NCBI RefSeq assembly: GCF_026151205.1
Contig: NC_087073.1
Coordinates: 3,028,501-3,088,500, forward strand
Direction: 5' to 3'
From: Bolinopsis microptera
Taxonomy: Eukaryota; Ctenophora; Tentaculata; Lobata; Bolinopsidae
Length of the DNA stretch: 60,000 bases
A program made the position numbers and the translations under genes. Of the stretch, positions 6,966-56,767 are shown piece after piece. The notes under the pieces are model-generated. The model searched no databases. It worked only from the letters and a program-made list of their open reading frames with translations, and was not told the DNA's origin. Numbering within the stretch: position 1 is the first letter of the stretch; every line of letters begins with the position of its first letter.

Positions 6966-6994
6966 TGTAATGTTTATTTTTGATCGACCCTCTT

Positions 6995-7330: not shown

Positions 7331-8059
7331 CTGCATGAATTGATATCTCTTTATTAAATGAAATATTTATTATATCTTCTTATTGTAAATAAATTTGAAA
7401 ACGTTGACCTTAATTTTCGTGTACTTACTTTGTTTACATTGAATATAACCGTGTTGACCCATTGGTTAAAGAGTTGACTGCGAGGAGAATGGATCAAAAA
7501 ATGTGAGGGAAAGAAAATAACCGCAGTCAATCAGGTTTTTTTGCAGTAAATTAGGTTTATATCATTGAAATGTAGATAAAATATAACTGGAAATTGTACA
7601 GAAAAAGATATTGTAAACGACCAAATTTGAGACAAAAAGCTTGAATCTAATGGGGTTACAGCATTAAGGGGACATACACCAAAACCGTTTTAAATGGTTA
7701 GACCCACCAGATGACTTCATATTAGGAGAATATGGGGGAATGTGGACAAAAACAATAAGTTTCCTGCTTCTTGGCTCCCTGCTAACAGCTCCACGAACTG
7801 TAATGTAGACATCAACTTATGAAGAAAGTTTCGAATAGAAAAAGCGATTTTTCGAAAGTGCGAATAATTTTATGACATTGTGGCTAAACTTATTGTTTTG
7901 GTGTATGTCCTCTTAAGTAATGGTGAACTTATTGGTGGTGAATTGATTTGTAGCCTGCTCTAAATATGTTATCTTATATGAGAACTCTTCCCTTATCATG
8001 TATGTATGAACAGTTGAATATTGAACATTCATTTTTAACTGACTAGGTTTTATCTAGGC
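7331..8059. other. Intergenic, upstream region of second P450
   Basis: Non-coding. About 7807-8059 recurs at about 10800-11020 in front of the third P450, so the probable promoter was copied with the gene. The downstream copy lacks about 60 bp following GTGCGAATAA. Confidence 0.7.
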
Positions 8060-10429: not shown

Positions 10430-11020
10430 ATGTTTTTACCGTACCCTGGCCCTGATTAAACCATGTTAAATCAAGTTAGATTTTTATGAACAAGCTCTAT
10501 TCTCCACTATTAATTGATTTTTGATGTTCTTAAAGTTTTCATTAGGAAACAATTTGGCCAGTATCTCAGAATTTTTTCGAATGCTGTATTAATTAAATAT
10601 GAGCATGTAATGTTTTACAGTAAACTTTATTCATTCTCATTTGTTTTCAGATAATTTATTTTTATTTTGAATTTATTTTAACGATTATTGCTTTCTATGA
10701 AAAATTGCCTTATATAAACTAATTTTTGTATTTCTACACAGTTCTGTTCGAAATTTCAGGAGCTGCTTCTTGACTTCTTGCTGACATCGTCACGAACTTC
10801 AGACATCACCTTGTCCTTATGAAAAAATAAGCTTCAAAAAGAAAAAGCGATTTTTTCGAAAGTGCGAATAAGTAATGGTGAACTTATTGGTGGTGAATTG
10901 ATTTGTTGCCTGTTAGCTCTAAAGATATTATCTTATATTAGAACTCTTCCCTTATCATGTATGTATGAACAGTTATTAATATTGAATATTAATTTTTAAC
11001 TGACTAGGTTTTATCTAGGC
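10430..11020. other. Intergenic between P450 genes 2 and 3
   Basis: AT-rich. The right part (from about 10800) is a copy of the sequence upstream of gene 2. No other features seen. Confidence 0.6.
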
Positions 11021-13465: not shown

Positions 13466-13741
13466 ATGTTTTTACCGTGCCTGGTTAAACCGTGTAAAAT
13501 CAAGTTAGATTTTTATTTTTAGTAACAATATCTCAGAAATGCTGTATTAATGGGTTATAAGTATGTAATTTTTAAACTTTATTCATTCTCATTCGTTTTA
13601 TACAATTTATAACAAGTTATGTTATACTAACACTTAATAACTAATATTAAAAACTGTTTGTTTTTATTTCGAATATTTAAATCACTCCATTTAAATCAAA
13701 CGTGACTTTTGCAAAGTTATTTTTATTTTGAATTTATCTTA

Positions 13742-14291
13742 AGGGGTCTTCATCAAAATTATCTCGAGATCAACTTTATAGTTGTTTCTGATAGAGGGGA
13801 GTGATATCTATCAGCTGCTTTTCTTCCCATGGAAAAACATTGTTCCTAGCAGAAATTATCCTTGGTCAAAGGTCAGCGCTTGTGTGTAATTGTATTGCGC
13901 GAGCGATTTTCAATTGCACGTTCTGAAGATCTATCTTCTCCTACATTTTTTGAGCAATCACCCTCAAACCTTCAGGATATGTTCTTAAGATCAGTTAAAA
14001 GAGAACTCTAGAGCTAGAATTTTAAGAGAGGCTTTTAAAGATTTTAAATTTGAAAATGTTGGACCTCTAAAAATCGACAAAGATCGATAGATTTTTAGAC
14101 TCGATTTTCAGAACGTGCGATTGAAAATTCGGGCAATAAAATTACACAAAAGCGCTGACCTTTGACCGGCGATAATTTCGGCTAGGAACAATATTTTTCC
14201 ATGGGACCAAAAGCAGCTGATAGATATTACTCCCCTCTATCAGAAATAACTATAAAGTCGATTTCGAGATAATTTTGATAAAGACCCCCCC
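13742..14291. mobile_element. Foldback (MITE-like) element, arms of about 200 bp
   Basis: Left arm about 13742-13940 and right arm about 14100-14291 are imperfect reverse complements. Landmarks are the ends AGGGGTCTTCATCAAAATT and its counterpart closing with GACCCCCCC, then shared ATCAGCTGCTTTT, CCATGGAAAAA and AAAGGTCAGCGCTT. About 160 bp separate the arms. There is no ORF. The target-site duplication is not clear because both borders read TTA next to the G/C run. Confidence 0.8.
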
Positions 14292-14410
14292 TAATGATTA
14301 GGTATTGCTTTTGATTAGGTAGTGCGATTATTTTTTTCAGACAATGATTGCATTTTATAAAATCGTTTCTAGAATATCTCTGTTTATGTGTTTATGAGAT
14401 AAAACCTTAT

Positions 14411-17081
14411 CACCCCCCGCGCGTGAGGGCACGTTTTTGCTAGTAATTTGCGACATTACTTTATGGATATCGAATCTCGCGACTTCAACGAAGTGCTGGG
14501 GACAAGTTTTCAATAATTCATAAACTTTTCAGTTCCTATCGTTTTAAGCATCGTTAGGGCTTTCCCAGAAACTAACTCTCATCATCCTAGGATAATCATG
14601 TGTCGCACAGCACTTGTTTCAGTAGAGAGTGTACTCACCTTTACGAGAGAATGACGTGTACGTTTCGGTCACCTGCGGAAAAAGGAAGTGAGATATCGAA
14701 AATCTGAGATAAACCCGATCGATAAAATCCTTTCAGGTAGGTGCTAGTCAAGATTTCATCTCTTTAGACATTAAGATGGCTTCAAACACCTCACAAAAAG
14801 TTTTCAAAAGTAAATTTGACTCGCGACCTACAAATACCACCATAAAACTTGCCCTCATATATTTTTGAGGGCAAGTTTTTGAGCCCGCCGCGTGACTTTG
14901 TCTCAGCAACAGCAAGACATAGTTACAATCTCGCAACTATGAACAGACAAGGAAAATATTGTATTAATATCTGTCAAAGGAATTTAATGTATTTTAACAA
15001 CTTGTTCTAATAATGCTAATAACTAATCGATGAACCTCATAAATGGTCGGCCCGGTGTGAGTGTATAGTATGGATTGTGCTCTGAAATGGGGCGCTGTTA
15101 TTGGTTAATACAGCGGCCAATCAGGATCGAGCTGGTTTGTGGCTGCAGTCCAAATTTAGGATCATATCTGATTAGGTACCTAATTAGTGATTATGCACTT
15201 TAAAGTAAGATTAACTCGGTATTCACAATCCACATTAAATCGCTACATTTTGCAAATCAGCTGATATTTGTAACTTTAAAAAATAGTTGTAACTTATATA
15301 TTTATACAGGTCCCCGGTTTAACAAGCATTCAGGATAGAAGAACCAGCAGCGGTTAATGACACTAAAACAGAGGTGGAGAACAGTAAGAACAGCAGAAAG
15401 AGTGGAGTGAGATAAATATCTTCTCTTTTTCTGCACTGGTTACTGATGCTCAACAGTTATTCAAGAAAATTCTGGCCTGGGTTATGTTTTAAAATTAGAT
15501 ATAGCCAGGCCCATGTCAGTTTTGTTTATGTTCTATTTATCATGAAAAATGATTGTGCTCGGAGTGATCTGGGCAAAAAATTAATTTGAACTCCACGGGG
15601 AATCGAACGTGCGACCGCCCTGCCCCTGCGAGGCACTCGACGCTCTAGCGGTCACGCCACACGGGATATACGCTCATTAAAATTGTGATGTCTATATAGT
15701 GCTTATTTGGCAGAAATTAGTACCGCATACAATCCTCAATTTTGAGTTTGTTATGATTGTAATTGGGAAGTGGGAACATTAAACAACTCTTCTGCATTTA
15801 ATTGGAACTGTCTGTACAGTGTACACGATAAAATACATTGGGTAATTACAAAGATTGTGTACAGTGCATTCGGGGGCTTTGCTTTTGACTGATTTATTTT
15901 CCGGACAGTTCTTGGAAGTTCAATTAAAACCAGTGCAGTAGAAGAGTAAACTTGCATGAGAGTTAAAATGGTACTATTATAATTTGTGTTGTCAGGTAAG
16001 ATTTCAGTTTTCACTTTGATACATTGGTATGTGATTTATATGCTGATTACAGATTACCGATAAAGATTGTTACATGTACAATTCAGAAAAATGTGTACAT
16101 CATATGAGAGTCTAACTGTCTTCTCATTTCACCTCTTAACTGACAAGTGACATGTCAGAAACATGAGTCGTCTTATAATGATACAAACACTATATAATAA
16201 TATGATTTTCACGTTAAGTAGTCAGCTTGACCTTGATTGGTTGCAGACAATTGTTAATGTGGATTGTGAATACCGAGTTAATCTTACTTTTAAGTGCATA
16301 ATCACTAATTAGGTACCTAATCAGATATGATCCTAAATTTGGACTGCAGCCACAAACCAGCTCGATCCTGATTGGCCGCTGTATTAACCGATAACAGCGC
16401 CCCATTTCAGAGCACAATCCATACTATACACTCACACCGGGCCGACCATTTATGAGGTTCATCGATTAGTTATTAGCATTATTAGAACAAGTTGTTAAAA
16501 TACATTAAATTCCTTTGACAGATATTAATACAATATTTTCCTTGTCTGTTCATAGTTGCGAGATTGTAACTATGTCTTGCTGTTGCTGAGACAAAGTCAC
16601 GCGGCGCGCTCAAAAACTTGCCCTCAAAAATATATGAGGGCAAGTTTTATGGTGGTATTTGTAGGTCGCGAGTCAAATTTACTTTTGAAAACTTTTTGTG
16701 AGGTGTTTGAAGCCATCTTAATGTCTAAAGAGATGAAATCTTGACTAGCACCTACCTGAAAGGATTTTATCGATCGGGTTTATCTCAGATTTTCGATATC
16801 TCACTTCCTTTTTCCGCAGGTGACCGAAACGTACACGTCATTCTCTCGTAAAGGCGAGTACACTCTCTACTGAAACAAGTGCTGTGCGACACATGATTAT
16901 CCTAGGATGATGAGAGTTAGTTTCTGGGAAAGCCCTAACGATGCTTAAAACGATAGGAACTGAAAAGTTTATGAATTATTGAAAACTTGTCCCCAGCACT
17001 TCGTTGAAGTCGCGAGATTCGATATCCATAAAGTAATGTCGCAAATTACTAGCAAAAACGTGCCCTCACGCGCGGGGGGTG
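14411..17081. mobile_element. Non-autonomous DNA transposon with 828-bp terminal inverted repeats
   Basis: Arms 14411-15238 and 16254-17081 are near-perfect reverse complements of exactly equal length, beginning CACCCCCCGCGCGTGAGGGC. A 5-bp CTTAT occurs at 14406-14410 and again at 17082-17086 and fits a target-site duplication. The 1015-bp centre (15239-16253) has no transposase-like frame, only short ORFs and a tRNA-like segment. The same 62-codon ORF appears once in each arm because of the symmetry. Superfamily not determined; long arms recall Foldback- or MULE-type elements. Confidence 0.9.
15585..15667 (-). ncRNA. tRNA-derived (SINE-head-like) segment inside the TIR element
   Basis: On the minus strand there is an A-box-like TGGCGTGACCGCTAGAG, then about 35 nt later a B-box-like ACGTTCGATTCC. 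Stems pair poorly in a cloverleaf, so I read it as a SINE head or decayed tRNA rather than a working tRNA gene. Confidence 0.45.
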
Positions 17082-17369
17082 CTTATGTAATGAATAAGTA
17101 TTGTATTTTTTATCATCTGAACGAATTTGTTAATTCTGAAATAGTGTGAAATGTATTACTATCTTTAGTAGATACAATAGATTTATTAATGATGTCGTAT
17201 TATTTGTTTGTTTGACCGATTCAATGTTTACTTTCACTCGAAATAATTACAGCCTGAGCCATTTTCGCAATCTTTTTTCGCTTTTTTAAATGGGTCGATC
17301 ATATTATAGAGATATAATTTGATATCAAATTATACTTAGCCATTTTCACGGGTTAAAGGTACTATGTAT

Positions 17370-18430
17370 GATCTTTGATTAAGGTCCCACATCCAGAAAG
17401 TTTCAAATTTCCTTGTGCAGTTACATACTTTGGTTACTTTGGTGTGCTTCATAGAATCCTCTATCGGGTCATCAGAGTTGTTGACCACCCGGACAGCGAG
17501 ATCGCTGCCTTTATTCTACTCCAGTCCAGTAACGAATTTCCATTCCGACAGCTGTATCCTGCCACTAGAGGCTCATCCGGGAATGATTTCACAAACGTTG
17601 TAAGTATTTCTTTAAAGTGCAGGGGATTTTCGATAGTATGCATGTTTGGTGGGATTAAGTTCCACAATCGAGGTCCAATTACTGCAAATGAATTGTCATA
17701 GAGCGTTTGGTTGCGCTGACTGCTAGATTTATTCAGTGGGAATAACTGCCTTTTGGCCATGTCGGAGTGTTGCAGAGAACTGGATGTTGACATCATTTGA
17801 GCACTTGCCGTGCAGCACTTTCCATATGTGGATGATGGTATATCGTTCTCTCCTCCGTTGCAACGACATCAAATTTAAGGCCTTGAGTCTCTGCCAGTAG
17901 TTTAGATGCTGTAGGCCATCTATTCTCGTCGTGAACGTGCGCTGAACCCCTTCCAGTTGTTGGACGTCCGTATTCTTGGAAATATTTCATAAGGGGCAAC
18001 AGTACTCGAGGTGGCTTCTGATGAGAGATTTGTAAAGGGTCAGCATGGTGACTTTGTTCCTCGTTTTAAACGCACTCAGAACCCAAGCAGCAACTTTACG
18101 AGCACGTTCGGCTATAAGGGTAACGTGGGGACTCCAGGATACTGTAAGTCAGCTGAAACCATCACCCCTAAATCTTTAACCACTTTAGGAGGGTATAACA
18201 TGTTGCCGTCCGAGACTTGGTATACTTGGGTTAGGATGGCAAATGGGTGGTCTAGCAAGATGTTTTGAGGACAATGTTTGAGGACAAGCAGCTCAAATTT
18301 ATCATCGTGAAGTGCCATGTTGTTGCATTTTGCCCACTTATCGACACAGTTGAGATCATGCTGTAATATCTGAGCATCTGTTAGACTATAGATGGTGCCG
18401 TACAATTCGGGTATCATAGACTGCAAAGAA
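17370..18430 (-). pseudogene. Decayed LINE reverse transcriptase 3' fragment
   Basis: Minus-strand pieces in different frames. About 18426-18112 has the region after the catalytic aspartates (LQHDLNCVDKWAKCNNMALH, then VVKDLGVMV). About 17796-17461 has the typical LINE C-terminus (YDNSFAVIGPRLWNLIP, then NGNSLLDW). The linking part, 17999-17793, is frameshifted. Palm motifs and the endonuclease are missing. Sequence style resembles CR1/Jockey-group elements and differs from the LINE at 4625, so it is another family and older. Confidence 0.8.
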
Positions 18431-19088
18431 CCTGATGATTGATCATCAGGTTTCCAACTTAAAGATTTTGTTATGCCCTAACTCATAACTGCCAACATTT
18501 CCACTAACTGTAGTTATTTTGTGATCCAGTAGAATTTACAAAGTCTCTCAGAACTTCATTACTTTAGAATTATCTTTATATTAGAAAACTCTGCACCCAT
18601 CGTCAGAAGGTGAGATGTTAAACTTCCTCTGAAAATAGGTTTTTCGAATTCCACGACTCAGAGTGAGAGCATCTTTATGTTACCCGGAATTTTATAGATA
18701 ATGTTGGGAATCCGTGTCTATTGATACTAATTTGAATTAGATTTCATTTTCTGAGAAAGCTGTTCACTTAAAGACTTAAGTATTCACATGACTCCTATAG
18801 CATAAGTATTAAGTATGTGACTTGTGTAGGTGATGTTAAACTGTGGTCACGTGAATGCATTCCTGTAACGTCACTGGCAAACTTTTAAACTTTCATACAA
18901 ACCATAGTAACCATTTGCATTGTTGATATCATTTATGATCTCCAACATGCCATTGGCGTCCAATGCAACAGTGGTTCAACAAGGTTCATTTCGTATTACG
19001 TAAGTGGAGCACTTATTTCTTTATTTGACGATTCTCCTAATATTGTAATAAGGCATTTTGTTACTAACCACCTTTATCTAGATGAAAC
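18431..19088. other. Intergenic upstream of P450 gene 4
   Basis: No coding or repeat structure except a 20-bp palindrome (CCTGATGATTGATCATCAGG) at about 18430, abutting the decayed LINE. Confidence 0.5.
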
Positions 19089-21024
19089 ATGCTGTTCACT
19101 ATCTATATCGGAGTCACACTGTTGGTTTGTTTCCTGATTTATCTTCATGTGAAAACTTACCTTGAAAGAAAACGTTTCTATCACATTCCTAGTATCCCCA
19201 TCCCAATATCCTGGAAATGGTACTTCGGACACACTACTGCAATACAAAAAAAGAGGTTGGAGCTTGGAGGGAAGGGTTTTGATTTCGCAGTTCTGTTCGA
19301 AGCTCTCCGGAAAGAACTTGGGGTTGACACGTATGTTTTGTATATTTTTGGGGGAAGTATAATTTACACACTTCGCGTTCCAGTAATTGCTAAGGTGCTT
19401 AGTGATCATAGAACCTTTATGAAAAGAAAGCCCGAGGAAACGGGATTGTGTTATGTTGCTGGCGTCAGAGTTTTTGGTCCAAACGGAATCCTAACTGATC
19501 CCGGAACCGAGAAATGGTATCATAAACGGAAAATGATGGATCCGGCATTCCAAAAGAAGTTCCTCCGAATTTTGATGGGTGATATAACGAAAAGTGCTGA
19601 GAAAATGTGTCAGTATTTGGAAGATAACAAGGACCAGAAGACCATAGATATTTACAGCCTCATGAATAGAGTTGCATTAGAAGTTGTTTGTTCCTGTGGA
19701 TTTGACCTGAAAGATGATTTTATTATGGCCGAAGATTCAAAACTGAATAAAGCTGTCGCTGATGTGTTTGATATTTTGGCACTTTCAATTCTGGAATTCT
19801 TTACCTTTCCGTTGCCATGGAAGTTTAGGTCCGAGAAAAAGAGGTTGAAGGAGTCCAATGGTTTGTTAAGAGGTATGATGAAGGAACATCTTTCAGTCAG
19901 ATTAGAGAAGATCACCAAAGACCCTGACGGCATCTCCAATGACATCTTAGACCATATTATCCGAGGTTTGATATAATATAATATGTTCACCTATCAACAT
20001 TAAAACTGGTATGTATCTTTTTCTTGTTTGTGATATCAAGTTGATGATAAACATAATATAATAATATAGGTTAAAGCATGCCACGTTTTATTTGTTTTTC
20101 ATGGAAAAACTATGAGTGGTTCCATTTAATTAAAAGGAGATTTTTATCCAGGGAACATGACTGGAGAGGAAGTTTCAATGGATGACATCATTGATGATTT
20201 CTTTGTGTTCATGGTAGCCGGTATGGAAACTACTGCTATAACAATGTCTACCCTCATCTGGTTGCTTCTTAAACACCCCGAGATATCTCAGAAAGTGGTT
20301 GCCGAGGTACTTATTAGTTTCACCTACCTGGTAATGAACATTTCAAACTATTCATGATTAACTATCGTCACATATTGTTGTAAATGTTGATTGTATCTGC
20401 AAGGCTGATTCAATAATTTGCTGGCTTTTCTATTCAGGTCACGGAAGTATACGGAAGCAAAGAAACTTTAGATTATGATGACTTGAATAAGTTGGTGTAC
20501 CTTGAACAATGTATTAAAGAGTGTCTGAGAATGCACCCTCCAGCCCAGATGACTTCCCGGGTGTGTTCTACAAGTGATGAAACAGTGGCGGGTCTCCTTA
20601 TTCCAAAAGGTGTTCACCCTTTCTACTTTATTTTCTTTATTAATCTCCAAACAACATAAGATACCACAATATGGCTAAGATGACGAATTAATTTATATTT
20701 GTCTTTTTTTCAGGAGCTATAGTGATGTTACCCACAGAAGCTGTTCAACATTTAGAGGAATTCTGGTCAGATCCTTACACGTTTGATCCGGACAGATTCG
20801 CTCCTGGCAAGAAAATAGAGCCCTTCACTTACTTTCCGTTTACGGCTGGACCCCGAATATGTATTGGTAAACATTTCGCCATTATGGAGGCAAAAGTTGT
20901 TCTGGCTAAGTTGTACCACACTTTTCAGTTTTATGATCCATATCCTGAGGAAATGAAACTTGAGAAGATCACTACCTTGACTGCTAAACCAAGAAATGGG
21001 GTTTTTGTTGGGATAGCTAACTAG
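19089..21024 (+). CDS. Cytochrome P450, CYP46-like (cluster gene 4)
   Basis: Exons 19089-19965, 20152-20306, 20438-20609 and 20714-21024 give 504 residues. It has the same intron phases and exon sizes as the other cluster genes. Anchor of about 22 residues, SIPIPISW hinge, WYHKR, AGMETT, ECLR and FDPDRF are present. The heme loop reads FTAGPRICIG, with Ile replacing the Gln found in the other three just before Cys; the cysteine itself is intact. It is more divergent than the gene 2/3 pair and is separated from them by the foldback, TIR and LINE insertions. An AATAAA lies at about 21387. Confidence 0.9.
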
Positions 21025-26353: not shown

Positions 26354-27810
26354 TATATCCTGGAGTAGTTGAAGCACCAGATCAAATATTGGAATACACT
26401 CATGAACAGTATTCTGCTTTTCTTCCAACACTTATGGTGTATCAATCAAGAGGATTTGTTATTACCAGACTATTATTCTCCTTAATGTGTACAATCTATA
26501 TTGAGAAAAAGAGAAGACAGTTTCTCTTCCCAGAAGAAAATAGAAACTTCTGGAACATTCTGGAGTAGTTGAAGCACCAGATCAAATATTGGAGTACACT
26601 CATGAACAGTATTCTGCTTTTCTTCCAACACTTATGGTGTATCAATCAAGAGGATTTGTTATAACCAGACTATTATTCTCCTTAATGTATACAATATATA
26701 TTGAGAAAAAGAGAAGACGGTTTCTCTTCCCAGAAGAAAATAGAAACTTCTGGAACATACTGGAGTGGTTGAAGCACCAGATCAAATATTGGAGTACACT
26801 CATGAACAGTATTTTGCTTTTCTACAAGCACCAATTTGACATCAGTTTTACCTGCTATTACTGTTAAATATACTGGAGTGGTTGAAGCACCAGATCAAAT
26901 ATTGGAATACACTCATGAACAATATTCTGCTTTTCTTCCAACACTTATGGTGTATCAATCAAGAGGATTTGTTATTACCAGACTATTATTCTCCTTAATG
27001 TGTACAATCTATATTGAGAAAAAGAGAAGACAGTTTCTCTTCCCAGAAGAAAATAGAAACTTCTGGAACATTCTGGAGTAGTTGAAGCACCAGATCAAAT
27101 ATTGGAGTACACTCAAGAACAGAATTCTGCTTTTCTTCCAACACTTATGGTGTATCAATCAAGAGGATTTGTTATTACCAGACTATTATTCTCCTTAATG
27201 TATACAATATATATTGAGAAAAAGAGAAGACGGTTTCTCTTCCCAGAAGAAAATAGAAACTTCTGGAACATACTGGAGTAGTTGAAGCACCAGATCAAAT
27301 ATTGGAGTACACTCATGAACAGTATTCTGCTTTTCTACAAGCACCAATTTGACATCAGTTTTACCTGCTATTACTGTTAAATATACTGGAGTGGTTGAAG
27401 CACCAGATCAAATATTGGAATACACTCATGAACAGTATTCTGCTTTTCTTCCAACACTTATGGTGTATCAATCAAGAGGATTTGTTATTACCAGACTATT
27501 ATTATTCTTAATGTGTACAATATATATTGAGAAAAAGAGAAGACGGTTTCTCTTCCCAGAAGAAAATAGAAACTTCTGGAACATTCTGGAGTGGTTGAAG
27601 CACCAGATCAAATATTGGAGTACACTCATAAACAGTACTCTGCTTTTCTACAAGCACCAATTTGGCATCAGTTTTTCAGCTATTAACTGTTAAATATCCT
27701 GGAATGGTTGAAGCACCAGATCAATTATTGAAGTACACTCATGAACAGTACTCTGCTTTTCTACAAGCACTTATGGTGTATCAATCAAGAGGATTTTGTA
27801 TACGGGTACT
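26354..27810. repeat. Two-unit satellite array (about 200 bp and about 112 bp units)
   Basis: Units begin CTGGAGTAGTTGAAGCACC or CTGGAGTGGTTGAAGCACC at about 26360, 26559, 26759, 26871, 27075, 27276, 27386, 27590 and 27700. The long type (about 200 bp) contains ATGGTGTATCAATCAAGAGG and ends GAAACTTCTGGAACAT. The short type (about 112 bp) instead continues TTCTACAAGCACCAATTTG. Long and short alternate irregularly, giving a higher-order pattern. Units carry open frames of 80-114 codons, but with no recognisable protein and with stops shared at unit junctions. Confidence 0.85.
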
Positions 27811-33055: not shown

Positions 33056-36000
33056 ATGGTCAAGAAGAAAGGAGATTTAGCATTTACAGTAATCCATCTT
33101 CCTGCCCTCTATCCAACTCTCGATATCATCTCGCAGATATCTATATCCCCTGTGGCGGATGGATTTGATGGTACTGTCTGTCTGAACATTGCTCCCCAGT
33201 TTCCATCTTCAACTTTTAAACAGGTCATTATAGCACTGGATTGCTCAGATTAGAGTAATATTTTGTTCAATTATATCGGCATGAGTATTTTGGCCAGATT
33301 GTTCACCTTATTTTTACATAACCATGTTCCTGACCGAATATACTAAGTATAAGAGATCAACCTATTTTATAGAAGACCTTGTTTATAAACAAGTTCGATC
33401 CTAACAGGACACATGTTTCTCAGTTTCAACACGATATTTTCATGCTTCTCCGTCAAAACACCTATTATATACATTTCCATAACTATCTCTTATTTCAGAT
33501 AGATGCGTTCAAGCACTGTGCGGTAGAAAACAAGGCTTTATCACGAATCATCCCTGAAAACACACGAACAATCATCATTAACAATCTCAGTTTTTGGATT
33601 CTCTATTGTGGTAAGATTAAATCACTTCCCCTCTTTTCAAAATGAGTCGTTGCTTTGAAATTTGCGATATTTTGAAATATCTTGACCGAGTATCGCTAAG
33701 ATACAACTTAGTGAACGTGACCACCATCTTACACTTATTTTACTTCAGACAACAGCCACATTTTTACACAGTTGTACCAGCCAATTACAGGAAGCCGAAG
33801 GATTAAATTATACATTAGGCTTGTAGCGCGATGCACTACTGGGCCGCGCCGCGCATCCAATAATGGGGGGGGGTGTCACGTCCGTCTATGTCCGCTTGTC
33901 TCATAGAATCCAAAAAGGACAGGACATAGGCGGACATAGGCGGACATAGGCGGACATAGACGGACATATGCGGACATAGACGGACATAGGCGGACATTGG
34001 CGGACATAGACGGACATTAGCGGACATTAATGGACACCTAAATTGCTAAATAAAATGTTCAATTTTTGCTGTTATAGGGGGATCATGTTTTTTGTCCGTT
34101 CGGTACCCTATATTTTCAAAACGGACAAAAATAGAGCGGACAAAAACGGACAAAAATGGACAAAAACGGACAAAAATGGAAATAACATTTAGATGCTTCC
34201 TCCTCCTACTCTTCCTCCTCCTCCTCATGGGTCTTCCTGATCTTGCTCAGTCCTCTTCCTCCTCCCCTCCTCAGCCCTCCTCCTACTCCTCCTCCTCGTC
34301 CTCAGTCCTCCTCATCAGTCCTCAACAGTCCTCCTCCCCAGTCCTCCTCCTCTTCATCCTCCTCCTCTTCCTCCTCAGTCCTCAGTCCTCCTCAGTCCTC
34401 CTCCTCATCCTTCTCCTCAGTCCTCCATCCTCCTCCTGAGTCCTCCTCCTGGGTCCTCTTCCTAGGTCATCCTCCTCCTCTTCATCCTCCTCCTCTTCCT
34501 CCTCAGTCCTCAGTCCTTCTCAGTCCTCCTCCTCATCCTTCTCCTCAGTCCTCCATCCTCCTCCTCAGTCCTCCCCCAGTCCCCCTCCTCCTCCTCCTAT
34601 TCAGTCCTCCTCCTCCTCAGTCCTCCTCCTTCTCAGTCCTCTTCCTCCTCCTCCTGAGTCCTCCTCCTCCTCCTCCTCCTCTACCCTCTCAGTCATCCTC
34701 CTCAGTCCTCCTCCTCCTGGGTCCTCCTCCTCCTCTTCATCCTCGGTCCTCAGTCCTCCTCCTCATCCTTCTCATCAGTCCTCCTACTCCTCAGTCCTTT
34801 CCCAGTCCCCCTCCTTCTCCTCCTCCTATTCAGTCCTCCTCCTCCTCCTCAGTTCTCCTCAGTCCTCCTTCTCATTTCTCCTAAGTCCTCCTCCTGAGTC
34901 CTCTTCCTCCTGAGTCCTCCTCCTGAGTCCTCCTCCTCCTCCCTCTCAGTCATCCTCCTCAGTCATCCTCCTCAGCCATCCTCCTCAGCCATCCTCCTCA
35001 GTACTCCTCAGTCCTCCTCCTTCTCAGTCATCGTCAGTCCTCCTCCTCAGTCCTCCTCAGTCCTCCTCCTCCTCCTCCTGGGTCCTCCTCCTCCTCCTCC
35101 TCCTGGGTCCTCCTCCTGGGTCTTCCTGATCCTCCCCAGTCCTCTTCCTCCTCCCCTCCTGAGTCCTCCTCCTACTCCTCCTCGTCCTCAGTTCTCCTCA
35201 TCAGTCCTCAACAGTCCTCCTCCTCCCCAGTTCTCCTCCTCCTCCTGGGGCCTTTTCCTGGGTCCTCCTCCTGGGTCCTCCTCCTCCTGGGTCCTCCTTC
35301 TCCTCCTCAGTCCTTCTCCTCCTCCTCCTCAGTCCTCTTCCTTCTCTTCCTCCTCCTCCTCCCTCTCAGTCATCCTCCTCAGCCATCCTCCTCAGTCCTC
35401 CTCCTTCTCAGTCCTCCTGAGTCCTCCTCCTGAGTCCTCCTCCTCCTGAGTCATCCTCCTGAGTTCTCCTCCTCCTCCTCCTAGGTCCTCCTTCTGGGTC
35501 CTCCTCCTCCTCCTGGGTCTTCCTGATCCTCCTCCTCCCTCTCAGTCATCCTCCTCAGTCATCCTCCTCAGTCATCCTCCTCAGCCATCCTCCTCAGCCA
35601 TCCTCCTCAGTACTCTTCAGTACTCTTCAGTCCTCCTCCTTCTCAGTCCTCCTCAGTCCTCCTCCTGAGTCCTCCTCCTCCTGAGTCATCCTCCTCAGTC
35701 CTCCTCCTCATCCTCCTGGATCCTCCTCCTGGGTCCTCCTCCTGGGTCTTCCTGATCCTCCTCCTCCCTCTCAGTCATCCTCCTCAGTCATCCTCCTCAG
35801 TCATCCTCCTCAGCCATCCTCCTCAGCCATCCTCCTCAGCGATCCTCATCAGTACTCTTCAGTACTCTTCAGTCCTCCTCCTTCTCAGTCCTCCTCAGTC
35901 CTCCTCCTGAGTCCTCCTCCTCCTGAGTCATCCTCCTCAGTCCTCCTCCTCATCCTCCTGGATCCTCCTCCTGGGTCCTCCTCCTGGGTCTTCCTGATCC

Positions 36001-39000
36001 TCCCCAGTTCTCTTCCTCCTCCCCCCCTCAGTCCTCCTCCTACTCCTCGTCCTCAGTCCTCCTCCTGAGTCCTCCTCCTCCTGAGTCATCCTCCTGAGTC
36101 CTCCTCCTCCTCCTCCTGGGTCTTCCTGATCCTCCCCAGTTCTCTTCCTCCTCCCCTCCTCAGTCCTCCTCCTACTCCTCGTCCTCAGTCCTCCTCATCA
36201 GTCTTCAATAGTCCTTCTCCTCCCCAGTCCTCCTCCTCCTCCTCCTCCTGGGTCCTCTTCCTAGGTCATCTTCCTCCTCTTCATCCTCCTCCTCTTCCTC
36301 CTCAGTCTTCAGTCCTTCTCAGTCCTCCTCCTCATCCTTCTCCTCAGTCCTCCATCCTCCTCCTCAGTCCTCCCCCAGTCCCCCTCCTCCTCCTATTCAG
36401 TCCTCCTCCTCCTCAGTCCTCCTCCTATTCAGCCCTCCTCCTCCTCAGTCCTCCTCCTTCTCAGTCCTCTTCCTCCTCCTCCTGAGTCCTCCTCCTCCTC
36501 CTCCTCCTCTTCCCTCTCAGTCATCCTCCCCAGTCATCCTCCTCAGCCATCCTCCTCAGCCATCCTCCTCAGTACTCCTCAGTCCTCCTCCTTCTCAGTC
36601 ATCGTCAGTCCTCCTCCTCAGTCCTCCTCCTCCTCCTCCTCCTCCTCCTGGGTCTTCCTGATCCTCCCCAGTCCTCTTCCTCCTCCCCTCCTCAGTCCTC
36701 CTCCTACTCCTCCTCCTCCTCCTCAGTTCTCCTCAACAGTCCTCCTCCTCCCCAGTCCTCCTCCTCCTCCTGGGGCCTTTTCCTGGGTCCTCCTCCTGGG
36801 TCCTCCTTCTCCTCCTCAGTCCTTCTCCTCCTCCTCCTCAGTCCTCTTCTTCCTCTTCCTCCTCCTCCTCCCTCTCAGTCATCCTCCTCAGCCATCCTCC
36901 TCAGTCCTCCTCCTTCTCAGTCCTCCTGAGTCCTCTTCCTGAGTCCTCCTCCTGAGTCATCCTCCTCAGTTCTTCTCCTCCTCCTCCTAGGTCCTCCTTC
37001 TGGGTCCTCCTCCTCCTCCTGGGTCTTCCTGATCCTCCTCCTCCCTCTCAGTCATCCTCCTCAGTCATCCTCCTCAGTCATCCTCCTCAGCCATCCTCCT
37101 CAGCCATCCTCCTCAGCCATCCTCCTCAGCCATCCTCCTCAGTACTCTTCAGTACTCTTCAGTCCTCCTCCTTCTCAGTCCTCCTCAGTCCTCCTCCTGA
37201 GTCCTCCTCCTCCTGAGTCATCCTCCTCAGTCCTCCTCCTCATCCTCCTGGATCCTCCTCCTGGGTCCTCCTCCTGGGTCTTCCTGATCCTCCCCAGTTC
37301 TCTTCCTCCTCCCCCCCTCAGTCCTCCTCCTACTCCTCGTCCTCAGTCCTCCTCCTGAGTCCTCCTCCTCCTGAGTCATCCTCCTGAGTCCTCCTCCTCC
37401 TCCTCCTGGGTCTTCCTGATTCTCCCCAGTTCTCTTCCTCCTCCCCTCCTCAGTCCTCCTCCTACTCCTCGTCCTCAGTCCTCCTCATCAGTCCTCAACA
37501 GTCCTTCTCCTCCCCAGTCCTCCTCCTCCTCCTCCTCCTGGGGCCTTTTCCTTGGTCCCTATATAATTTGATATAATAAGTTAAAGCTATTAATAGCTTT
37601 AGTGTGATTAATAAGTCGTTTGTTTTGTACAAGATTATAATACAAGTTGCGAAAAATTCTCAAAATGTTTGTCCGCTTATGTCCACCAATGTCCGCTAAT
37701 GTCCACCAATGTCCGTCCGAGTCCGCCTATGTCCGTCCGGGTCCGCCTATGTCCGTTCGAGTCCGCCAATGTCCGTCCGAGTCCGCCAATGTCCGTCCGT
37801 GTCCGCCCATGTCCCAAAAAACACGTCCGTTGTCTCATAGAATCCAAAAAGGACAGGACATAGGCGGACATAGACGGACATGACACCCCCCCCAATAATC
37901 AATAATGCTTCTCGTAGATCGGCGAGATGCACCACTGGGCCACGCCGAGCTACGAAGGATTGACATCGTCAATCAAACATTGGGCCAGTGACGGTTAAGG
38001 TGGTGTGTACCATACTATCTTCGCCTGAGACTTGGCTGCAATGGGCAGCTCCTCATTTAACCCTCACACCCGATTTCTCGAGTATTCGGCTGAGTGGATC
38101 GGGGGCTACATAGATCACTCGGAACCATTAGCTGAGCATCAATGACGCTCACCCCATGGCTGGTAACTCAGCTGGGAATCGAACCTGGTAGCTCACGATT
38201 AACAAGCAGGAAGATTTACCAACTGAGACACTCAGCCATTAAAAGGGTTTCCACTAATTTCACTTGTGATTCCAGGGCTGCAGCGAGTGTACAAGGAGCT
38301 AATACAACTCAGTAGAGAGCACAAAGTCATAACCACCATCTCTCACGACACTCTGGATCAGGAAACGGAGGATACTATCTTACTCTTACCCGATCTTATC
38401 TTATCACTTTCTCCTGATCCTGAAGATCCTCTTTCCGGAACACTCATGGTAAGTCTTTGACCTGGGAGCTCTGGGTTTGAAGTAAAGGTCTTCTAGCGTC
38501 TTATCTCTAATCATGCCCTAATGAAGTGCGTGATTTAATTAAGCAACAAATCGATTTCTGCAGAAATTAAGTTATTTTCTCGATAATTAGCGCTGCCCTC
38601 AAAATTGGCAATGTTTTTCACTCATCCTTATACTTCCTATGTCGATTTTCAATAAATGTTTATTTTTGTTTCGATAGAAACAATCGCGATTAGTCATAGT
38701 TGAGACAAGTCGATGCTAAAATACTCTGTCACCCAGGAAGTGTTACGACAAAGTTCGGGAAGAACGGAGAAGAAAACGCAACGTTACAGTTTGTTGAAAT
38801 CAGAATCTTCCTTCAAGTTGGATATCTCTAAAATCGAGGAAAAAACCGCTGCTGCCCCCGAATCTAACTCTCACAATGTTGGTTGATGATTCATGTTGTC
38901 TTCATGTTGTCTTCATGTTGTCTTCATGTTGTCTTCATGTTGTCTTCATGTTGTCTTCATGTTGTCTTCATGTTGTCTTCATGTTGTTTTTATGTTGTCT

Positions 39001-41492: not shown

Positions 41493-43042
41493 ATGATAAG
41501 TCGGATAGTGAGGACATGTATCACATTCTGGACTATATACCTGTCAATCTTTGGGCCTGCTGCTTACTCTTATGTTATTGATAGACCTTATCATTGGAAT
41601 ACTCCTGTGTGCGACTGCTCTGTTGAAAGGGCCCTGCAAAATGGTTTGTAATATGAAAAATGCAACAAAAATGTCAGCTTTAAATTTTGTGTGCACATTT
41701 TAAAGACTATAAAGAGTTAGTAAGGTGTTTCTGCCTCCTGAATCACTATTGTATTCCTTTTATAGAAATTCGGCTTGGCATACAATATCTGAAACGAAAA
41801 TCCTGTAATTTCTATCAAGAGTTTTCAAAATGTTATCAATTTGGAACAGTAAAATTCGATAAAGGCAAACAAACGCAAATGTCCAAATATTCTCTTATTT
41901 CAGACGCGTGTAAAAGTCAGTGTGCCATCGTGGTACGAGTAAGAAGACAAAGTCGGAAGAAGCGGAAGAAACCAAAAACTACCGTACCTGTCACGACTGT
42001 CCTGACGACCTCTACTGGAACCACATCTGCAGGAACCACATCTGCAGGAACCACATATGCAGGAAGCGTAACAGCTGCCAGCTCCATCACCTCCACTGCC
42101 ACCTATACTGCTGCTTCAAGCTCCAGTGCTGCAAGTGTATCATCTGCTGCTAGTGTCAGTGGTACCACTACAGTAGTGGCAACTGCAGGATCATCTGTCA
42201 GCGCGGTATCAGATACATCCACTATCGAGGTCTCCACTACTGGCGGCTCTACTACAACGCTAGCCCCGACAACGAAAGTGATCACAACAAAGCCGGTCAC
42301 GACAACGAAAGTGATCACAACAAAGCCGGTCACGACAACGAAAGTGATCACAACGAAGCCGGTCCCGACGATGAAAGTGATCACAACAAAGCCGGTCCCG
42401 ACGATGAAAGTGATCACAACAAAGCCGGTCACGACAGTGAAAGAGGTAACAATAAAGCCAGTCACGACAGTGAAAGTGGTCACGACAAATCCGGTTACGA
42501 CAGTCAAACCGGTCACAAAAAAGCCAGTAACGACCGTTAAAGTGGTAACAACAAATCCAGTCACAATAAAGGAAGTAACAACCGTCCAAGTGGTCACATC
42601 AAAACCAGACATGACTGAAAAGACGACAATCGAACAAATGACTAGTGGAAGAAATACTTTGCAGATAACTGACACAACGGAGAAATCCAGTAAACCGATT
42701 GAATCCACAAATAAAAGCAGCGCGGGCTCTGGGTCAGGGCAGAACATGGTTGTGTCCACCACACCCGGAGTCCCGGCTAACCCATCTGAAACGACAATTA
42801 CGACATCCTCCAGTTCATTAACTGGCACGTCGACACCAGAGAAGGACTCTACTTATACATCTACCAGTTCCAGTGCCCTAATGTCTAAAACCTCCGGCAC
42901 CACCACCACCACCACCACGACAACAACTGTAACTACCACCACGGGGACTGGAAGTACTAAAGAGGAGGGGGACCCTCAGACCACTACTTCTTCTAATCCT
43001 AACTTCTCTACATCGTCTACTTATATAACAACCAGTCAACCG
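41493..43042 (+). CDS. Mucin-like secreted/membrane protein, N-terminal exons
   Basis: Exon 1 (41493-41643) encodes a signal peptide (MISRIVRTCITFWTIYLSIF, about 28 residues) and then a cysteine pair, VCDCS. Exon 2 (41766-43042) joins in phase 1 and adds further cysteines (SCNF, KCYQ, ACKSQC), a basic patch RRQSRKKRKKPK, and over 350 residues rich in Thr, Ser, Pro and Val. Within it about ten copies of a ten-residue repeat (KVITTKPVTT and variants) are typical of O-glycosylated mucin stalks. The last codon before the GTAAAA donor is CCG, phase 0. Probably continues in the exons from 50379, since those lack a signal peptide and start Ser/Thr-rich; the phases do not join directly, so at least one exon is missing from this model. 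Family not recognised. Confidence 0.65.
42268..42600 (+). repeat. Coding 30-bp repeat in mucin-like exon
   Basis: About ten copies of a 30-bp unit with core ACAACGAAAGTGATCACAAC, decaying to the right. Frame kept. Confidence 0.85.
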
Positions 43043-50378: not shown

Positions 50379-53300
50379 CAAGCACAACATTATACCAAAC
50401 TACGGAGACTAAATACTACACTAAAAGTAGCAACAATGCCACCGAGTTTCCGACCGAACCAGTAGAGACTGAAACTGAGGCGTGGGCAGTGCTCAAAAGT
50501 CAAGAGTATGAGTGAGTTATCAGTTCTGCAGTTTTAGTCAATATTTTGATGCAGCAATTCAGTGTATAAAACACTAAAACAGATTGGGGTTTCTGTTTGA
50601 ATTGTAGCACAGAAAAACAAATTAAACGTAATCCATGTCGCCAGGTTTAAAGTAATGAAAGGGAAGCTGAAGGACGATAAGAAGGAGTGTAAGAACCAGT
50701 ATGGTGTAGTGATCAAAGTCCTTAACCCTGACTCTGATGGCTATAGAGGCTATGTAAGTGAATAACATTCGCATTTCTTGAATAATATGGTTTATTATAT
50801 CATTGGAATATAGATCATCTTTGTAGTTTGATTTACATAAATTTATTTTAAATTATCGCTCGATATTGCAGTATTGTTCGTGATTTGTTAAGCTTGTTCC
50901 TTACTTTCTTAATAAATGAACCCCCAGTCGCTCATGTGTTTCAAATACAAAGACCTTGAAAAAAGCGACGTTCTGCCCGGTGACGGTGTCCTTACCGTCA
51001 GAATTGAAAAACTTAAGGTAATACCGGGAAACGTTCCTACCCACAGTAAAAAATATAGTAATTCTGTATTGCTTATTTTACTTCTTTAGGAGCAAAAAAA
51101 GAAATCGGAGAGCCGAACTAGCAGAATCATCCATACGCAAAATGTAACCATTCGATTAAATATTTCTCACTACTTATCAGTCTTAACCTCCCGATCTACT
51201 CATTAATTCCCATGAAGAATATGCCTGAATTCTTCAGACTCAAATTATTTTCAAACTAATATCATCTAATCATAATCGGTCATGTCAAACACCTTAGTAA
51301 GATTTATGCTCCACAGTACTTATACGGGACATTAGGAACCAGGATATTTACTCCAACTTATTGGAACTCAGGATACTGTAGTATACCCACTTGTATTGAC
51401 TTAATAAACTGTCAGTGTATTAGATTAAGCAACTTGGCAGGGTCAATTAAATTCCTGTAAATGATTATTTCGAATATACATGTATAAATTTAATTTTGTA
51501 GATGAGTTCATTATCAAAAAGTATTGAAACATAAATTTGATTCAAAATTATTATCTGTAAGTAACAGTCTTAGAACTGCTAAGAATCAATAAGTTTGCAA
51601 ATTCGAGTTTTGTTCATATTTGTGAACCCCATTATTTTCTAAAATGATTTTGGAACAGAGCAAAATTCTAACAAAGTTAATGTTGTGAACAATGATTACA
51701 GTAAATTATTTGTAAGCTTTATGAACTAATGGAACTAGATTTTGTTTATAAAAAAATTTATTGTTTTTTAAAATCAGGACATTATTTTTGAAACACCCTG
51801 TATATAGAGATATAGGCACAGTTGGGGCACGCAATTAAAATTCCTGGGGCAAAAAGTTACTTAGGCTAGGGTAATGCAGTGTATTGTAGAATGTAGTTTG
51901 TAGAATGTAGTTTGTAAAATTTAGTTTGTAGAATGTAGTTTGTAGAATGTAGTTTGTAGAATTTAGTTTGTAGAATGTAGTTTGTAGAATGTAGTTTGTA
52001 GAATGTAGTTTGTAGAATGTAGTTTGTAGAATGTAGTTTGTAGAATGTAGTTTGTAGAATGTAGTTTGTAGAAGGTAGTTTGTAGAAGGTAGTTTGTAGA
52101 AGGTAGTTTGTAGAATGTAGTTTGTAGAATGTAGTTTGTAGAATGTAGTTTGTAGAATGTAGTTTGTAAAATTTAGTTTGTAGAATGTAGTTTGTAGAAT
52201 GTAGTTTGTAAAATTTAGTTTGTAGTATGTAGTTTGTAGAATGTAGTTTGTAGAATGTAGTTTGTAGAATGTAGTTTGTAGAATGTAGTTTGTAGAATGT
52301 AGTTTGTAGAATTTAGTTTGTAAATTTAGTTTGTAGAATGTAGTTTGTAGAATCTTGTTGGAGGGTCAGATGACGTTTCTATGTTTTGATGTTATAGCTT
52401 AACTGAGGCGACCTTGTAGTGCGGTTTGGTAGCACATTAACTTAAAATACGAACAACAGGAAGAACGGACCTTTTGAAGTTCTGTACATGGAGGACACGC
52501 CCATGTTGGTCGACTACGTCAGTCAGATTGGAGTTATGATCGTGATCATGGATGATATGGTCATTCCGGGCAAGTTGATCAAACCTGTTCTGCAAAATAT
52601 TATGCACGATATTTTTAAGGTGAGCTAAAGATGACATTACATGTATATCTCAAATGTTATCGAATGTTATCCGTATTCGTTCCCCATTTGGTACATTTAT
52701 ATGAGCCGTTTTCCTTCAACCCCCAAGAGAAATTAAACAATTACAAGTTCTTTCCATTGGCCTAACTTCATTAATTCCTGACACATTGTGTCAGGAACTT
52801 CACCTCCCCCCAGAGCTCACCCCCGTATTGTAGCTAACTCCTTCACCTCCCCCCAGAGCTCTCCCCCGTATTGTAGCTAACTCCTTCACCTCCCCCCAGA
52901 GCTCACCCCCGTATTGTAGCTAACTCCTTCACCTCCCCCCAGAGCTCACCCCCGTATTGTAGCTAACTCCTTCACCTCCCCCAGAGCTCACCCCCGTATT
53001 GTACCTAACTCCTTCACCTCCCCCCAGAGCTCACCCCCGTACTGTAGCTAACTCCTTCACCTCCCCCCAGAGCTCACCCCCGTATTGTAGCTAACTCCTT
53101 CACCTCCCCCCAGAGCTCACCCCCGTATTGTAGCTAACTCCTTCACCTCCCCCAGAGCTCACCCCCGTATTGTAGCTAACTCCTTCACCTCCCCCCAGAG
53201 CTCACCCCCGTATTGTAGCTAACTCCTTCACCTCCCCCAGAACTCACCCCCGTATTGTACCTAACTCCTTCACCTCCCCCCAGAGCTCACCCCAGTATTG

Positions 53301-56300
53301 TAGCTAACTCATTCACCTCCCCCCAGAGCTCACCCCCGTATTGTAGCTAACTCCTTCACCTCCCCCCAGAGCTCACCCCCGTATTGTAGCTAACTCCTTC
53401 ACCTCCCCCCAGAGCTCACCCCCGTATTGTAGCTAACTCCTTCACCTCCCCCCAGAGCTCACCCCCGTATTGTAGCTAACTCCTTCACCTCCCCCCAGAG
53501 CTCACCCCCGTATTGTAGCTAACTCCTTCACCTCCCCCCAGAGCTCACCCCCGTATTGTAGCTAACTCCTTCACCTCCCCCCAGAGCTCTCCCCCGTATT
53601 GTAGCTAACTCCTTCACCTCCCCCCAGAGCTCACCCCCGTATTGTAGCTAACTCCTTCACCTCCCCCCAGAGCTCACCCCCGTATTGTAGCTAACTCCTT
53701 CACCTCCCCCAGAGCTCACCCCCGTATTGTACCTAACTCCTTCACCTCCCCCCAGAGCTCACCCCCGTACTGTAGCTAACTCCTTCACCTCCCCCCAGAG
53801 CTCACCCCCGTATTGTAGCTAACTCCTTCACCTCCCCCCAGAGCTCACCCCCGTATTGTAGCTAACTCCTTCACCTCCCCCAGAGCTCACCCCCGTATTG
53901 TAGCTAACTCCTTCACCTCCCCCAGAGCTCACCCCCGTATTGTAGCTAACTCCTTCACCTCCCCCCAGAGCTCACCCCCGTATTGTAGCTAACTCCTTCA
54001 CCTCCCCCCAGAGCTCACCCCCGTATTGTAGCTAACTCCTTCACCTCCCCCAGAGCTCACCCCCGTATTGTAGCTAACTCCTTCACCTCCCCCCAGAGCT
54101 CACCCCCGTATTGTAGCTTACTCATTCACCTCCCCCCAGAGCTCACCCCCGTATTGTAGCTAACTCCTTCACCTCCCCCCAGAGCTCACCCCCGTATTGT
54201 AGCTAACTCCTTCACCTCCCCCAGAACTCACCCCCGTATTGTACCTAACTCCTTCACCTCCCCCCAGAGCTCACCCCAGTATTGTAGCTAACTCATTCAC
54301 CTCCCCCCAGAGCTCACCCCCGTATTGTAGCTAACTCCTTCACCTCCCCCCAGAGCTCACCCCCGTATTGTAGCTAACTCCTTCACCTCCCCCCAGAGCT
54401 CACCCCCGTATTGTAGCTAACTCCTTCACCTCCCCCCAGAGCTCACCCCCGTATTGTAGCTAACTCCTTCACCTCCCCCCAGAGCTCACCCCCGTATTGT
54501 AGCTAACTCCTTCACCTCCCCCCAGAGCTCACCCCCGTATTGTAGCTAACTCCTTCACCTCCCCCCAGAGCTCACCCCCGTATTGTAGCTAACTCCTTCA
54601 CCTCCCCCCAGAGCTCACCCCCGTATTGTAGCTAACTCCTTCACCTCCCCCCAGAGCTCACCCCCGTATTGTAGCTAACTCCTTCACCTCCCCCCAGAGC
54701 TCACCCCGTATTGTAGCTAACTCCTTCACCTCCCCCCAGAGCTCACCCCGTATTGTAGCTAACTCCTTCACCTCCCCCCAGAGCTCACCCCCGTATTGTA
54801 GCTAACTCCTTCACCTCCCCCAGAGCTCACCCCCGTATTGTAGCTAACTCCTTCACCTCCCCCCAGAGCTCACCCCCGTATTGTAGCTAACTCCTTCACC
54901 TCCCCCCAGAGCTCACCCCCGTATTGTAGCTAACTCCTTCACCTCCCCCAGAGCTCACCCCCGTATTGTAGCTAACTCCTTCACCTCCCCCCAGAGCTCA
55001 CCCCCGTATTGTAGCTAACTCCTTCACCTCCCCCCAGAACTCACCCCCGTATGGGTACGGGATGGAATATTACCTCTACATTGGTATCCCTGACATGTAC
55101 ATGTCAACCCTAGTGTGGAGTCACAACGAGTTCCTGGCTAGTATACTGGCGTGTATAACACTCGGCTCTATTATTCTCATGGTCATGGTGTCTGCTCTTA
55201 TTGCTGGAGTGCGGAGTGGAGGGGTAAGAGTATTTCGGTTATGTTGAGAGGAGTTATCATGGTGACTACTTTAAAGATAATACCATTACCAGTATCAGCA
55301 GTCAGCACGATACATGGTTATATGTATTATTTTATCAAAGAAGACTAAATCTATTGATCCCATAACTCCCACTTCATAGATACGCAACTAACACTATAGT
55401 TACAGTATATGTGTAACTTGGTGCCTGCCTGAGTTCCTGCAATCTAATAGTTTGTTGTACAGGAGGACGAGTCCTCTGAGAACGAGGACGACTCCAACAC
55501 CGACATTAACGACGAGTCTCTGTATCACGACGACTCTAACAGACCTGCTGAGATTCAGGAAACAGACCTTAAACTGGTCGACGATGTTCCACAAAAACAG
55601 GTTCAAGTTTTCTTAGTTTGGAATGAAATTTGCTGCTCAAAATTTGGAGGTTACATCATGCATAACTTATAAATAATATCTAATTATGACATTTGAATCA
55701 ACATTATATTCATATGACTGATTTAAATAAAATTAAACACGGTATACTGAGGCAATAGATGATTCATCGATAAGTTGACAAGTTTAAATTCTAAGAAATG
55801 CATTACAATATTTCAATTACCCGTTTAATAGTTACAATGTTCCTAGGGTGAAAATAACTTGGACTCTGGTGAGATAGAGGGGTGTTGTTGCGACATCACA
55901 CCAGACAAGGCTGATGTTATCGTGAACAAGTTCAATATCACCGCTACTGGGGAGGAGGAAGCTAGTGAGTTATTATTTCACAGTATACAGGAAGGTGTGG
56001 AGGAAAGGGAGGGAGTGGAGGAAATGGAGGAGGGGTGGAGGAAAAGGAGGAAAGGGGAGGGTGTGGACGGAAGGGAGGAGGGGTCACATATTCTGATTTA
56101 AGGGCACACTGAAGGTTAAAATATGGACAGACACGTCTGAATATACAAATGAAGCATATATCACTGGCCGGGTGGTGTAGTGGTAACACGATTGCCTCCC
56201 AAGCAGAAATCCCGGTTTCGAATTCGGTCGGCTGCAAGTCGGCCAGTTGCCAAGCTGTGATTTGGTACAGCTTCGGCTGGTGATACACAGTACAGACTCC

Positions 56301-56767
56301 CTTGCTCGTAGGACTAGCCCCCCTACAGCTAGTATACTAGTATAGTGCCTTGGCACCGAGTGGCTTAGGGTTAATGAACAGGAGATAAGCACCTCAGGCC
56401 ATACCAACACTGGGAGTGTCCTAGCCTTGTATCTATAACTAACATCCACATTCAACAACCAGGGACTGAAGCAGAGGCAGCAAACACGCCAGCGAGCACC
56501 AACTTAGACCAAGAGGAGCATAAGAACACGGGAAGCAAGAAGAAGTGCGAGCTGGATGAGAAGGCTGGTGAGGGGGAGGAGATGAAAGAGGAGGATCCTG
56601 ACAGCTGCTCTGAAACTGACAACACCAAGAAGGAGGGTGTGGTGGAGGGAGAGGAGGTGAAGATCGTTAACAGAGACAACGGAGAGAAGACGGGAGATAA
56701 GGAAGATGTGGCTGCTGATGAAGAGAAGGAGAAGGAGAAGGAGGAGGTAAAAGAGCTCAATAATTAG
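50379..56767 (+). CDS. Type I membrane glycoprotein, C-terminal exons
   Basis: Exons 50379-50511, 50645-50753, 50928-51017, 51090-51143, 52460-52619, 55038-55223, 55463-55600, 55847-55964 and 56463-56767. In order: a Ser/Thr-rich start with sequon NAT; a folded-looking region with FKVMKG, YGVVIKVLNPD and SLMCFKYKDLE; a segment ending MHDIFK; then SPPYGYGMEYYLYIGIPDMY and one hydrophobic span (FLASILACITLGSIILMVMV) of about 27 residues; then a long acidic tail (EDESSENEDD, EEKEKEKEEV) ending ELNN. Tail size is about 190 residues. Exons 51090-51143 and 52460-52619 do not join in phase, so a small exon is missing between them. No known family recognised; likely one gene with the mucin-like exons at 41493. 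A SEA-type fold before the membrane is possible. Confidence 0.65.
51884..52353. repeat. 14-bp array (GTAGTTTGTAGAAT)
   Basis: About 33 direct copies with variants AAATTTAG and GAAGGTAG, in the intron before exon 52460. Each copy contains TTTGTAG. Confidence 0.95.
52777..52795. repeat. Palindrome at left edge of the splice-site array
   Basis: CCTGACACA, one base, then TGTGTCAGG: a perfect 9-bp-arm hairpin ending exactly where the array begins. Confidence 0.85.
52796..55037 (+). repeat. About 52-copy array of a complete 3' splice site
   Basis: The unit of 42-43 bp contains, in order, CTAAC (branch-point consensus), CTCCTTCACCTCCCCCCAG (pyrimidine tract and acceptor), then AGCTCACCCCCGTATTGTAG. 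The last copy is the real acceptor: CAG at 55035-55037, then exon AACTCACCCCCGTATGGG, sharing 15 exon bases with the unit. Variant units (GTACCTAAC, GTACTGTAG, CAGAACTC, CCCCAGTATTG) recur in the same order about 729 and 982 bp apart, so blocks of units were themselves duplicated. Confidence 0.95.
56165..56455 (+). mobile_element. tRNA-derived SINE in last intron of glycoprotein gene
   Basis: Head GGCCGGGTGGTGTAGTGGTA (A box) and, about 35 nt on, CGGTTTCGAATTC (B box), around a GCCTCCCAAGCAG anticodon-arm-like stretch reminiscent of tRNA-Gly. A body of about 200 bp follows. The next exon acceptor lies at 56461-56462, so the SINE 3' end nearly touches the splice site. Confidence 0.65.

Follow-up and report, generated by a model that had tools for sequence, protein, structure and literature searches.

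How does a spliceosome choose an acceptor when the whole site has been copied dozens of times in front of the exon? The question is raised by a predicted gene in the window, the 60,000-nucleotide stretch of the Bolinopsis microptera genome analyzed here. Beside a coding-like exon of this gene, an entire acceptor consisting of branch point, pyrimidine tract and AG has been amplified 53-fold.

Anatomy of the array and its predicted host gene

The array and the predicted exons around it have the following positions in the window.

52460 to 52619, plus strand: predicted exon 5′ of the array-bearing intron, ending in phase 0 (AAG/GTGAGC)
52620 to 55037, plus strand: array-bearing intron, 2418 nt with the last acceptor, predicted from sequence and the in-frame exon chain
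52775 to 52797, no strand assigned: perfect inverted repeat with 11-bp arms that adjoins the array start, read directly from the sequence
52798 to 55052, plus strand: tandem minisatellite array, 42-43-bp unit, 53 acceptors
52813, plus strand: AG of the first acceptor, without a CTAAC-like match in the 45 nt upstream
55038 to 55052, plus strand: exonic part of the repeat unit, 15 nt (AACTCACCCCCGTAT), complete in only 2 of the 52 internal copies
55038 to 55223, plus strand: transmembrane exon of 62 codons, phase 0 to phase 0, predicted to be opened by acceptor 55037 and ending at donor GGG/GTAAGA
55463 to 55600, plus strand: predicted next exon, acidic tail (coding score, in-frame chain)
55847 to 55964, plus strand: predicted exon (in-frame chain)
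56463 to 56767, plus strand: predicted last exon, with a stop codon at its end (in-frame chain)

TRF reports a single array from 52798 to 55052 with a period of 43, 52.7 copies, 97% matches and a score of 4307, which is far beyond what could arise by chance. When units are cut at each CCC(C)AG preceding A[AG]CTC, 52 of them lie between the first acceptor at 52813 and the last at 55037 (40 units measure 43 bp and 12 measure 42 bp), in good agreement with the original prediction of about 52 copies. The units fall into nine sequence variants, arranged in the order ACABDEABABFGAAAAAACABDEABBAABAIABFGAAAAAAAAAHHBAABAA. Blocks of 8 and 10 units are duplicated within this order, such that units 1-8 appear again at 18-25 and units 9-18 at 32-41, which suggests turnover by unequal exchange. 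The inverted repeat at the array edge could possibly favor slippage there.

Every unit had been predicted to carry a branch-point match and a strong C/T tract. This description holds for nearly all of the array, as a match is found within 30 nt 5′ of 52 of the 53 acceptors (CTAAC in 51, CTTAC in one), at a distance of 18-19 nt from the AG. The exception is the first copy, for which the next CTAAC is ∼48 nt upstream. The pyrimidine share of the tract is 82-88% in copies 2-53 and 71% in the first copy, but the tract is C-rich, and “strong” is therefore a generous term. The preference of U2AF65 is for U. At its other end the array crosses the predicted 55037/55038 junction and reaches 15 nt into the transmembrane exon. 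The boundary copies escape homogenization, with AACTCACCCCCGTAT common to only two internal copies and the branch-point part absent from the first.

All 51 matches of the array unit in a genome search fall at this locus. A second search returned 10 matches at this locus and one single-mismatch match at C2:750203, and a reversed-pattern control also returned one; the tool used in both searches may miss repeats. A dispersed mobile or intron-creating element was rejected, as these searches did not reveal copies at other genomic sites. Recursive splicing via the CCC/GTATTG within the unit was set aside because, judged by eye, this is a poor donor.

Only one frame of the exon at 52460-52619 is both open and codon-biased (18.3, versus −20.1 and −24.3), and the transmembrane exon has a coding score of 16.8 in the joining frame, versus −11.2 and −14.0 in the others. 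The latter score is equaled by 7% of the 12209 stop-free 186-nt stretches in the window, real coding ones included. From 52460 to the stop codon in 56463-56767, the predicted exons form a chain of 301 aa that is open in frame; no exon 5′ of 52460 could be chained in phase. Frame, codon bias and splice consensus point to acceptor 55037 as the one used. The acceptors of neighboring introns are AT-rich, versus the C-rich repeat part of the array.

Searches for a homologue of the transmembrane exon, and for a second genomic match to its protein, found none. Pfam searches with two pieces of the gene gave nothing at E up to 1, and phmmer against PDB gave nothing at E up to 10. A fasciclin-like ectodomain was considered and dropped as unsupported, the one genome match (on C4, E = 0.126) falling under the cut-off.

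Other features of the window include a second minisatellite at 51884-52353, just 5′ of exon 52460, with a 14-bp unit in 33.6 copies. Four related long plus-strand ORFs at 3345, 8039, 11000 and 19086 (within 3345-19976) are P450-like by eye, and a minus-strand ORF at 4632-6230 is reverse-transcriptase-like, also by eye. A tRNA scan of the 60-kb window found none.

Reading frames and sequence identity of the internal acceptors

Joined in phase 0 to the preceding exon, every one of the 52 internal acceptors runs into a stop ahead of the membrane span. The resulting tail is SSPPYCS in 43 cases, precisely the Ser-Ser-Pro-Pro-Tyr-Cys-Ser followed by a stop that had been foreseen for a standard internal copy. 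SSPPYCT, NSPPYCT and SSPQYCS occur twice each, and three longer tails once each. Shifting to the second AG of CAGAG, found in 50 of the 52 internal copies, meets a stop in every one. The last acceptor, 55037, reads NSPPYGYG... into the transmembrane exon.

Upstream of the AG, the internal copies are close replicas of the presumed authentic site. Identity extends over 23 nt in 38 of 52 decoys, 28 nt in 34, 43 nt in 28 and 86 nt in 15. On the 3′ side of the AG, two decoys match over 15 nt and none over 16 nt. Because the upstream sequence is the same in most decoys, the picking of 55037, if it is picked, must depend largely on the exon side. Exon size by itself cannot exclude the decoys, since the nearest ones would give exons of 229, 272 and 314 nt, and the last seven would cover a range of 229-484 nt. 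At the opposite end, the first two copies would define introns of 194 and 237 nt, compared with 2418 nt for the last copy.

Boundary arrays elsewhere in the genome

An extra sample of 27 stretches of 10 kb, taken at round coordinates and including two directly beside the window, contains two boundary arrays in addition to that of the window. One (in stretch L016) is of donor type and the other (in L027) of acceptor type.

L016, 2862 to 7109: donor-type array directly 3′ of an EGF-like exon, ∼35-bp unit with GTAAGT, 117 GTAAG
L027, plus-strand positions 3807 to 3990, minus strand: acceptor-type array in an EDC4 gene, 46-bp unit, four acceptors

The exon at L016 matches PF00008 with E = 0.0026, under its cut-off, and a few of the array units repeat the exon's own end, GGCTCCTGCATCCCC. 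The first donor joins this exon to the next in an open frame, and only three donors precede the stop that is met on read-through. The L027 unit consists of ATTTCAG and 39 nt of exon, and its first three acceptors lead to early stops. The first 38 aa of the exon that the last copy opens match EDC4_C (E = 4.4e-5), and when this exon is joined with its neighbors through that copy the match improves to E = 9.3e-19; joining through the first copy gives no Pfam family at E up to 1. By this homology, the boundary amplified at L027 is the native one. The frame-keeping site is the exon-side one in all three arrays.

This genome is rich in tandem repeats. Arrays with a period of at least 8 and at least 2.5 copies make up 32.6 kb of a 220-kb set that includes the window, and 11.5 kb of a 110-kb set. 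A screen for arrays that straddle a coding-like exon edge covered 71 arrays with a minimum length of about 60 bp. The window array ranks first with a score of 18.6, and the L016 donor array reaches 10.8. For comparison, 4.5% of 2840 random placements of same-size intervals reach 10.8 and 1.4% reach 18.6. Three of the 71 real arrays reach 10.8, and one of these is a repeat that lies within an ORF. The exon-edge codon score is crude, with 27% of random placements scoring 0 or more. Thus, arrays are not enriched at coding-like exon edges over random intervals in this comparison of 71 arrays with 2840 placements. Selection is therefore not needed to explain the boundary arrays, as accidental capture in a repeat-rich genome suffices.

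Eight arrays score above 6 in the screen, including those of the window, the L016 donor, EDC4 and another at L016 694-1346. The EDC4 array is only eighth, and was recognized by reading through the lower scores. Several other candidates were rejected as boundary arrays. The array at window 42267-42564 sits inside a 461-aa ORF, that at L030 3347-3490 resembles by eye an in-frame 39-bp coding repeat, the likely acceptor at the L014 array lies outside it, and no exon was apparent by eye at the L013 array.

Two further repeats were observed in the window. A 3.3-kb TCC/CAG-rich array at 33889-37875 lies between opposed CGGACA and TGTCCG short repeats, and a similar array (TCCTCCTCCTCCTCAG) with CGGACA/TGTCCG motifs nearby occupies L030 4825-7416; the two are possibly copies of a dispersed element. 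Interleaved 200- and 313-bp tandem repeats are present at 26360-27796.

Two boundary arrays in 270 kb of extra sequence would extrapolate to hundreds or thousands across the genome, although the error on this figure is large. We tentatively entertain the idea that boundary minisatellites of both splice-site types are common in this genome, with arrays above 50-100 copies, each constituting a natural test in which many near-identical sites compete and the spliceosome can be guided only by context on the exon side.

Origin of the array and comparison with known systems

We consider it likely that the array belongs with the boundary-spanning repeats known from amphioxus as “mirages”, such that a minisatellite captured a native intron-exon boundary by chance and is tolerated because splicing mostly goes to the exon-side site. 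The captured segment would comprise ∼28 nt of the intron end and 15 nt of exon, and the array would then have expanded on the intron side via unequal exchange or slippage. In a repeat-rich genome, some arrays are expected to land on splice sites in this way. The choice of site would have to be instructed largely from beyond ∼+15 of the exon, either by exon definition spanning its 186 nt or by enhancers within it. Leaky use of nearby decoys would introduce premature stops, and the products would presumably be removed by NMD. Block duplications, the identity of the decoys, the joining frames of both exons, the 301-aa chain and the repeat load are all consistent with this reading, as are the recurrence at L016 and L027, the random-interval control and the RT-PCR precedent from amphioxus. 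Conversely, if splicing in this genome works mainly through intron definition, the earliest copies would be expected to prevail, which would make the allele null. The codon score of the transmembrane exon is also unexceptional by itself, and the nearest decoys would open exons no longer than 229-484 nt. The proposal in the original prediction of a selfish array that persists because splicing favors the last or best site comes close to the explanation we favor.

The same decoys could instead have damaged the gene. Early copies are transcribed first and lie closest to the donor, at 194 and 237 nt, versus 2418 nt for the last, and in 34 of the 52 decoys the upstream 28 nt are identical to those of the authentic site. 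If such copies win, the haplotype would be null or hypomorphic and present in the assembly by chance. However, the exons farther downstream have retained an intact reading frame, although an array of recent origin would not yet have affected it, and amphioxus mirages are described as regularly spliced (PMC3087553); we therefore regard a damaged allele as unlikely. It is also conceivable that events ran in the opposite direction, with an unrelated intronic minisatellite growing into the exon edge and now supplying the acceptor and the first five codons. The C-rich composition of the repeat, set against the AT-rich acceptors of neighboring introns, and the second minisatellite in the intron upstream would fit such an invasion. 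Yet the repeated exon part is native in EDC4 by homology, and the unit is found at no other genomic place with a search tool that may miss repeats. This history appears quite improbable, and a native site probably seeded the window array.

The original prediction also raised the possibility of a noisy switch between anchored and soluble forms, in which internal acceptors, noisily or under regulation, are used at a useful rate and the protein is cut before its membrane span. The uniform outcome of all 52 internal acceptors in phase 0, and the branch point, tract and AG on 52 of 53 acceptors, would fit such a device. However, the stop lies 5′ of later predicted exon junctions, such that the expected outcome is NMD and not a soluble protein. 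Coding-like exon edges attract arrays no more than they do random intervals, which weighs against a selected switch, and EDC4 and L016 exhibit like frame-breaking decoys in other genes. An array of variable copy number would also be a poor device for setting a ratio. A switch is thus unsupported, and we judge it very improbable. The value of the locus is that it can show, in its natural setting, how one splice site is chosen from many near-identical ones. With 28 of the 52 decoys matching the authentic site over 43 nt, RNA from this locus would separate a first-transcribed-wins mechanism from exon definition, and no construct would be needed.

Competing AGs at one intron end are also found in NAGNAG tandem acceptors, which share one branch point and tract. 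NAGNAG sites lie three nucleotides apart, whereas the AGs of the window array are spaced at 42-43 nt and each except the first comes with a branch point and tract of its own, and the array was not assigned to that class.

Minisatellite units can act as splice sites, as in human IFI6 (6-16), where they supply several donors and three mRNA species (PMC4526556, citing Turri et al. 1995; the donor minisatellite is also mentioned in PMC3618361). The IFI6 units are donors that are stated to be used, whereas those of the window are acceptors whose internal copies lead to stops. As read from their frames, these copies would never yield the membrane form, unlike productive units of the IFI6 type. In C. 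elegans, intronic minisatellites have been linked to alternative splicing, but not through amplified splice sites as far as that account describes (PMC4039745). In the open-licence literature, judged mostly by title and abstract, we found no ctenophore report of such arrays and no case of a whole acceptor amplified to a similar copy number.

The original prediction was aware of no described amplification of a whole 3′ splice site, but amphioxus provides published cases. Its mirages are tandem repeats that span intron-exon boundaries, including the 3′ end of an intron together with the start of an exon, and are described for the globins BflGb6 and BflGb9 and for Adh3; RT-PCR suggests undisturbed, regular splicing across them (PMC3087553). 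The window array similarly spans a predicted boundary, joining the intron 3′ end to the 5′ part of the exon as in BflGb6. Many of its units carry splice signals, and its boundary copies likewise escape homogenization. The two haplotypes of BflGb6 carry 6 and 3 units, each 150-160 bp long, compared with 53 acceptors and a 42-43-bp unit in the window, where the host is a ctenophore and splicing is predicted from the DNA. Boundary-spanning repeats have been proposed as seeds of new introns (PMC3087553), an idea on which the window array bears. The recurrence of boundary arrays in this genome suggests that such minisatellites occur far outside amphioxus as well. Thus, the window array belongs to the known mirage kind, is extreme in copy number relative to the published globin cases, and probably extends this kind to a new phylum.
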